Assembly (NCBI GenBank): GCA_016192425.1 | Contig: JACPUE010000027.1 | Coordinates: 1 to 42,084, forward strand | Reading direction: 5' to 3' | DNA from: Burkholderiales bacterium | Lineage (GTDB): Bacteria > Pseudomonadota > Gammaproteobacteria > Burkholderiales > Burkholderiaceae_C | Length of the DNA: 42,084 nucleotides | In this document: positions 32,077 to 32,871 of the stretch, one piece after another | Numbering within the stretch: the first letter of the stretch is position 1 | How the letters are laid out: each line of letters begins with the position of its first letter | The notes under the pieces: model-generated | What the model was told of the DNA's origin: nothing | Database searches by the model: none | The model's input: the letters and a program-made list of their open reading frames with translations, nothing else | Position numbers and translations under genes: made by a program

Positions 32077-32871
32077 ATGAACGGCAACGGCAACGGCAAC
32101 GGCAACGGCAACGGCAACGGCAACGGCAACGGCAACGGCAACGGCAACGGCAACGGCAACGGCAACGGCATCCGCATCGAAGGCCTGCGCAAGCGCTACG
32201 GCAGCGGCGACACGGCGGTGGACGCGCTCAAGGGCGTGGACATGCAGGTCGCTCCCGGCGAAGTGGTCGGCCTCATCGGGCCATCGGGCTCGGGCAAGAG
32301 CACGCTGCTCAAATGCCTGGGCGCCGTGATCGACCCCACCGCCGGGCGCATGACGCTGGGCCAGGAGGTGATCTACGACGAGGGCTGGAAGGTCGACGAC
32401 CTGCGGGCGCTGCGGCGTGACCGCATCGGTTTTGTGTTCCAGGCGCCGTACCTGATCCCTTTTCTGGACGTGACCGACAACGTCGCGCTGCTGCCCATGC
32501 TGGCGGGCATGCCCAACGCCCAGGCGCGCTCGCGCGCGCTGGAACTGCTCACCGCGCTGGACGTGCAGCACCGCGCCAAGGCCATGCCCTCGCAGCTTTC
32601 GGGGGGCGAGCAGCAGCGCGTGGCCATTGCGCGCGGCCTGGTCAACCACCCGCCCGTGATCCTGGCCGACGAGCCCACGGCTCCGCTGGACAGCGAGCGT
32701 GCCATGGCCGTGGTGCGCATCCTCAACGACATGGCACAGCGCTACCAGACCGCCGTCATCGTGGTCACGCACGATGAAAAAATCATCCCCACCTTCCGGC
32801 GCATCTACCACATCCGCGACGGTGTCACGCACGAAGAAGCGGGCGAAGGCCGCAGCATCGACGCGGCCTGA
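32077..32871 (+). CDS. ABC transporter ATPase (DevA/MacB/LolD-like) with Asn-Gly repeat N-terminus
   Basis: The 264-residue ATPase powers the exporter. It has Walker [11 protein letters not shown]-loop [11 protein letters not shown], signature [14 protein letters not shown], Walker [14 protein letters not shown] and H-loop VVTHDEK. Its oddity is the N-terminus: ATG is followed by fifteen identical AACGGC units (32080-32169), giving (Asn-Gly)15 before the ordinary fold begins at [11 protein letters not shown]. Relatives usually begin close to that point, so about 30 residues are extra. The ATG at 32077 has GGAGGG 4 bases upstream. Changes in unit number would keep the frame but alter the tail length and the early mRNA, so expression or assembly could vary between cells. 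Confidence 0.92.
32080..32169 (+). repeat. Perfect hexanucleotide microsatellite, (AACGGC)15
   Basis: Fifteen uninterrupted AACGGC units begin at the second codon of the ABC ATPase gene. There is no base difference between units, so the array is young or kept uniform by slippage. Because the unit is six bases, gains or losses do not shift the frame. Confidence 0.98.

Follow-up and report, generated by a model that had tools for sequence, protein, structure and literature searches.

How a gene for an ABC transporter ATPase came to carry fifteen identical hexamers directly after its start codon, and whether their number matters to the transporter, is the question raised by this locus. The window, that is, the whole stretch of DNA analyzed here (42,084 nucleotides of a Burkholderiales genome), contains the array within a run of plus-strand genes, and the relevant features are as follows.

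29114..29725, plus strand: TetR-type regulator gene, first of the operon (PF00440, 33.9 bits, cut-off 24)
29722..30873, plus strand: periplasmic adaptor gene (RND_mfp, 148.5 bits, cut-off 94.9)
30870..32075, plus strand: permease gene with MacB_PCD and FtsX domains; GTG start assigned by eye
32067..32072, plus strand: Shine-Dalgarno-like GGAGGG made of the last permease codons, read from the sequence; GGAGGA in the two nearest species, G022 and G023
32077..32871, plus strand: ABC ATPase gene, 264 aa, body from Ile at 32170 (PF00005, 116.9 bits, cut-off 25)
32077..32079, plus strand: ATG start codon of the ABC ATPase gene, read from the sequence; same start position in orthologues
32080..32169, plus strand: (AACGGC)15 encoding (Asn-Gly)15, from the sequence and TRF; sole such array in the assembly
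32920..34404, plus strand: outer-membrane channel gene, NodT family (TIGR01845, 297 bits, cut-off 210.05)

The array, its start codon and its operon

All 15 AACGGC units are identical and in frame directly after the ATG, and the same frame continues into the ATPase body ATCCGCATCGAAGGC (IRIEG...); the coordinates, unit count and reading frame given in the earlier note match the sequence exactly. TRF reported a single array with 100% match and 15.2 copies, in which the fraction 0.2 stems from the next base, A. Random sequence of 42 kb with the composition of the window would be expected to contain approximately 1e-42 such runs, and the array is therefore not a product of chance. Runs of at least four AACGGC units occurred at this locus only in the whole 3.67-Mb, 68-contig assembly (the reversed-pattern control, 11 vs. 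12, is uninformative because reversed AACGGC is the same repeat in another phase). Other perfect arrays (at least 3 copies, at least 18 nt, unit of 12 nt or less) numbered four in 329,900 further bases, approximately 9% of the genome on contigs chosen nonrandomly from earlier searches, and the longest was 22 nt. The codons of the tract are ordinary for the operon (AAC for 21 of 27 Asn, GGC for 81 of 125 Gly).

The first three junctions of the operon are tight, with two four-base overlaps followed by a permease stop codon that ends one base upstream of the ATPase ATG. The array contains no in-frame start codon, and the next ones downstream (GTG 32218, GTG 32236 and ATG 32242) lie within the conserved body. 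Translation from the ATG before the array is well supported by these sequence features, namely, the Shine-Dalgarno stretch and the adjoining permease stop, and by the agreement of orthologue starts. That translation begins downstream and leaves the array untranslated, which the earlier note had named as a way for its reading to fail, is scarcely credible: the three candidate codons precede the P-loop, but they lie past the conserved segment, and the orthologue leaders and the Shine-Dalgarno stretch favor 32077.

With respect to gene content, adaptor, FtsX/MacB-type permease, ATPase and channel are adjacent, as in tripartite ABC efflux operons of the MacAB-TolC type, and the surroundings of the array look like such an operon, judging from domain matches. 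A promoter-like consensus match was found at 29061-29089 (1 observed vs. 0.3 in shuffles). The ATPase had been described as DevA/MacB-like, and its best matches are indeed LolD, MacB and DevA, but it scores below all three NCBIfam cut-offs (MacB, 187.3 bits vs. 966; DevA, 179.5 vs. 295.8; LolD, 192 vs. 307.75). It resembles the LolD, MacB and DevA ATPases in sequence and in sharing an operon with an adaptor, an FtsX-type permease and an outer-membrane channel; MacB is an ATPase fused to its permease, whereas here the two are separate genes. Among solved structures, MJ0796, LolD and MacB are the closest relatives, and the top alignments start only past the array, at residues 32 to 34.

The six-base unit lies in the coding frame, and a change in unit number shifts neither the frame nor the spacing of a promoter, the hallmark of a phase-variable on/off locus; the view that a frame-keeping hexamer is no on/off switch is thus borne out. 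Identical tandem units with a length that is a multiple of three, inside an open reading frame, are those of an in-frame coding microsatellite. The explanation that we favor (probability approximately 0.82) is that a seed of two or three hexamers expanded by slippage on the lineage of the window and that this affected the pump little, if at all.

Short leaders in orthologues and probable growth on the lineage of the window

The leader preceding the ATPase body had a median length of 5 aa in 95 orthologues and was exactly 5 aa long in 67 of the 95. These counts derive from 101 loci, including that of the window, of which 95 others yielded a length, and they contain repeated genomes (e.g., L011 and L039); five reverse-strand loci (L015, L016, L017, L026 and L027) had no leader value in the count. 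The 19 aa recorded for L024 is false, and the 45 aa of L107, which appears to run back into the permease gene, was set aside. When L015, L016, L017, L024, L026 and L027 were read in the proper orientation, short leaders were found. The longest leader among 93 orthologues (excluding L024 and L107) was 17 aa, compared with 31 aa in the window. In the comparison with homologues proposed in the earlier note, orthologues start at the same place with a short leader, and a long perfect array was not seen in any orthologue examined. An alignment of the window with 21 of 80 loci, 22 orthologues in all, gave a consensus start beginning with Met, with the first bases set by hand, so that the invariant Met is partly by construction.

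At the same locus, G022 (which matches Acidovorax sp. 210-6, L039) carries ATG followed by three AACGGC units, and G023 carries ATG-AAAGGC followed by two, with Lys replacing the first Asn. In the compared flanks (40 bases before and 30 after the array), one base differs from the window in G022/G023, and operon identity to the window is 91.2% for G022 and 92.8% for G023. Thus, at a syntenic locus with constant flanks, the related genomes differ in unit number (3; 2 plus one changed; 15). This is the variation that the earlier note had proposed to look for, seen here between species with one genome per species, and it supports expansion by change of copy number, as slippage would give. In a five-sequence tree, G022 and G023 grouped together with 100% support, the window fell outside them, and Piscinibacter caeni and G014 were further off; the Piscinibacter caeni leader (ACGGGC-AACGGC) contains one AACGGC. 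From this tree and the shorter leaders of more distant orthologues, the growth is assigned to the lineage of the window, and the simplest history for these sequences would be that approximately 12 units were added to an initial two or three.

Recent transfer of the locus was also considered and set aside. In G022 the locus lies on a 4.1-Mb contig, with which six segments of the window between 18446 and 41724 are collinear, and it was therefore treated as vertically inherited.

An assembly error, by which the true array would be shorter, longer or mixed, is a further reading. The count of 15 comes from a 68-contig draft, and a pure repeat of 90 bases is awkward for short-read assembly; the contig is nevertheless continuous through the array and matches the relatives on both sides, and an assembler would hardly create so many extra units from reads of a three-unit tract. 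We consider such an error very unlikely.

The earlier note took the perfect identity of the units to imply recent expansion. When only the approximately 20 synonymous sites of the array were considered, 1.5 changes were expected since the split (share of the branch of the window), with a probability of no change of approximately 0.23; when all 90 bases were taken to evolve at the region-average rate, 3.5 changes were expected (approximately 0.03); and for a wholly free tail, 6.7 were expected (0.001). These estimates use rough rates, assume independence and ignore homogenization by repeated slippage. Unit identity is therefore mild evidence of recency (approximately 0.23 or 0.03), not as strong as claimed, and the comparison with relatives is the stronger argument for expansion.

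According to the favored explanation, the last part of the ancestral ATPase leader would have been a hexamer seed of two or three units, like those of the sister species. We infer that slipped-strand mispairing during replication or, possibly, recombination between units then added approximately 12 units to the seed, either at once or stepwise. The six-base unit would have kept the frame, and the extra 24 residues would have been tolerated because the leader precedes the first conserved ATPase residues. The tract would then be unstable today, and lengths would differ between closely related isolates but have at most a small effect on the pump.

One MutS_I domain, scoring above its cut-off, is encoded, which gives no reason to assume a general defect in repair, although loops of six bases are poorly repaired.

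A second short hexamer array, (GGCCTG)3 in the permease gene (30927-30944), has three copies in the window, G022 and G023. This equality indicates that the change is local to the AACGGC array; it also indicates that a short hexamer seed need not expand, which counts against the explanation.

Array length, predicted folding and constraint

The main rival reading is that of a selected length-tuning device, in which unit number would set ATPase output or the behavior of the complex through early mRNA structure, translation or tail length, with variants favored in turn. The position of the array directly after the start codon, the frame-keeping unit and the plausibility of efflux as a varying trait all fit this reading. 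Folding was predicted with 0 to 25 units. With the flanks of the window, the local stem from -20 to +37 was weaker with at least four units (-10.1 to -11.1 kcal/mol) than with three (-18.5 kcal/mol), and the fold from -40 to +60 was weaker at 15 units (-34.3) than in G022 and G023 (-40.0 each), which also fits tuning. In contrast, the predicted energy to open the Shine-Dalgarno stretch and the start was 10.0-10.5 kcal/mol across tested unit numbers from 6 to 25 and was constant from 10 units, and the relatives with their own short leaders gave 10.25 kcal/mol (G022) and 9.49 kcal/mol (G023). A length-dependent dial is therefore not predicted, and the proposal of length tuning through early mRNA structure, made in the earlier note, finds no counterpart in a start opening that is flat from 10 to 25 units. 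In addition, the start lies so close to the permease stop that translational coupling may override local folding, and the long perfect array was missing from the orthologues seen. The array itself is not unusually folded (-16.1 kcal/mol vs. -20.7, sd 3.6, for shuffled letters). None of the observations shows the array acting as a switch or a tuner, and selected tuning is improbable; the array is probably near-neutral, as the expansion reading would have it.

Asn-Gly deamidates fast (textbook chemistry), and the earlier note suggested that the tail could age chemically. The corresponding reading, a tail used as a deamidation clock, is hardly tenable: leaders ending in Asn-Gly are few (8 of 96, vs. 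56 of 96 ending in Lys-Gly; the window and one genome counted twice are included), and G023 has Lys for the first Asn. The rarity of Asn-Gly leader ends argues that Asn-Gly chemistry is not a kept feature.

Across the three species, the ATPase body showed strong purifying selection (dN 0.005-0.007, dS 0.16-0.21); the two pairs that include the window had 3 nonsynonymous vs. 26 and 32 synonymous codon differences. This selection may be largely older than the expansion and is no proof that the long form works. In a structure model based on 22 sequences (mean pLDDT 53, which supports neither a fold search nor a position for the leader relative to the permease), residues 1-29 had no secondary structure and were all below 50, the leader had the lowest block means in the protein (32-38), and the first strand was at 32-39. 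The model agrees weakly with a disordered leader, much of the body also being below 50.

Recurrence, known parallels and further observations

A start of ATG plus five Asn-Gly pairs was absent from 398 other genomes of the family (1 of 399, the window's own). Six of 200 genomes of the order had arrays of six or more AACGGC units, or 5 of 199 when the genome of the window is left aside; the reversed-pattern control of this search has the same flaw as that of the assembly search. The five other loci (L171, L173, L174, L175 and L176) have 6 to 10 units in other contexts. Asn-Gly is encoded in an open frame in L171 (963 codons), L173 (665 codons) and L175 (238 codons, cut by the contig end), whereas L174 and L176 show only frames of up to 208 and 94 codons, an ambiguous picture. 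Expansion of AACGGC elsewhere in the order fits slippage and not a special device of the ATPase gene. The Asn-Gly array of L173 continues into a Ser-Gly repeat.

No report of an exporter ATPase with such a start was found among the matches listed for titles and abstract starts of the open-licence literature. In-frame hexamer expansion is already known in bacteria, and the ATPase leader is another instance. STTR5 in the yohM gene of Salmonella enterica, a nickel and cobalt resistance gene, has the 6-bp unit ACCACG with 15 units in LT2 and changes mostly by single units on passage (PMC3170611, PMC5183578), and isolates carry 17 alleles of 6 to 25 units (PMC3170611). Over 50 generations of passage, three deletions of one unit each were recorded for its 15-unit allele (PMC5183578). 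STTR5 resembles the present array in being an in-gene 6-bp array with 15 units in LT2, as in the window, but it sits between two domains and its variation among isolates is proven, whereas the ATPase array forms an N-terminal leader with variation known between species. In mutL of Salmonella and E. coli, an in-frame hexamer, (GCTGGC)3, lies in the lid over the ATP-binding pocket, with copy change by slipped-strand mispairing and a defective allele upon loss of one unit, that is, a switch (PMC2955026). Unlike the mutL array, the ATPase array lies outside the conserved body, and gain is the only change inferred. Another parallel comes from Burkholderia pseudomallei, which belongs to the same order as the genome of the window. 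The B. pseudomallei genome has hundreds of arrays, those within genes mostly in multiples of three (PMC1853098). The AACGGC array differs in standing alone in the sampled stretches.

In G010, of the same genus, the 17-aa leader MSIKTTEATKTTKATKG (L029:1450-1500) consists of an imperfect in-frame tandem repeat (9/18 nt) whose sequence is quite different, apparently an independent expansion at the same site, to judge from the repeat. This leader indicates that the site accepts extra length. It is conceivable, at long odds, that in-frame repeats have grown repeatedly in the leader of this ATPase family (AACGGC; 9-nt unit in G010) and that selection acts on unit number to set pump output by degrees; if true, this would be a nonswitching contingency locus outside the classic host-adapted pathogens. 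The array alone points to no new mechanism. The locus offers a clean before-and-after case, in which a seed of three units and an array of fifteen can be compared at one position of a gene otherwise little changed, and makes possible a natural test of the length tolerance of an ABC ATPase leader and of the pace of a hexamer array in a GC-rich bacterium.

Plasmid-borne relatives of the ATPase were also found. At E ≤ 1e-60, 207 records matched, of which 192 were 80-90% identical to the ATPase, mostly from Citrobacter, Klebsiella and Enterobacter. The best 40 of the 207 alignments all begin at residue 32; they are mute on arrays, as the low-complexity filter would mask the repeat.

Right after the operon, approximately 4.9 kb (34406-39317) had no match in G022, where the gap is <200 bases; comparison of the two sequences suggests a lineage-specific gain or loss. 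This segment contains a minus-strand open reading frame (34454-36658) that is, by eye, TonB-dependent receptor-like.
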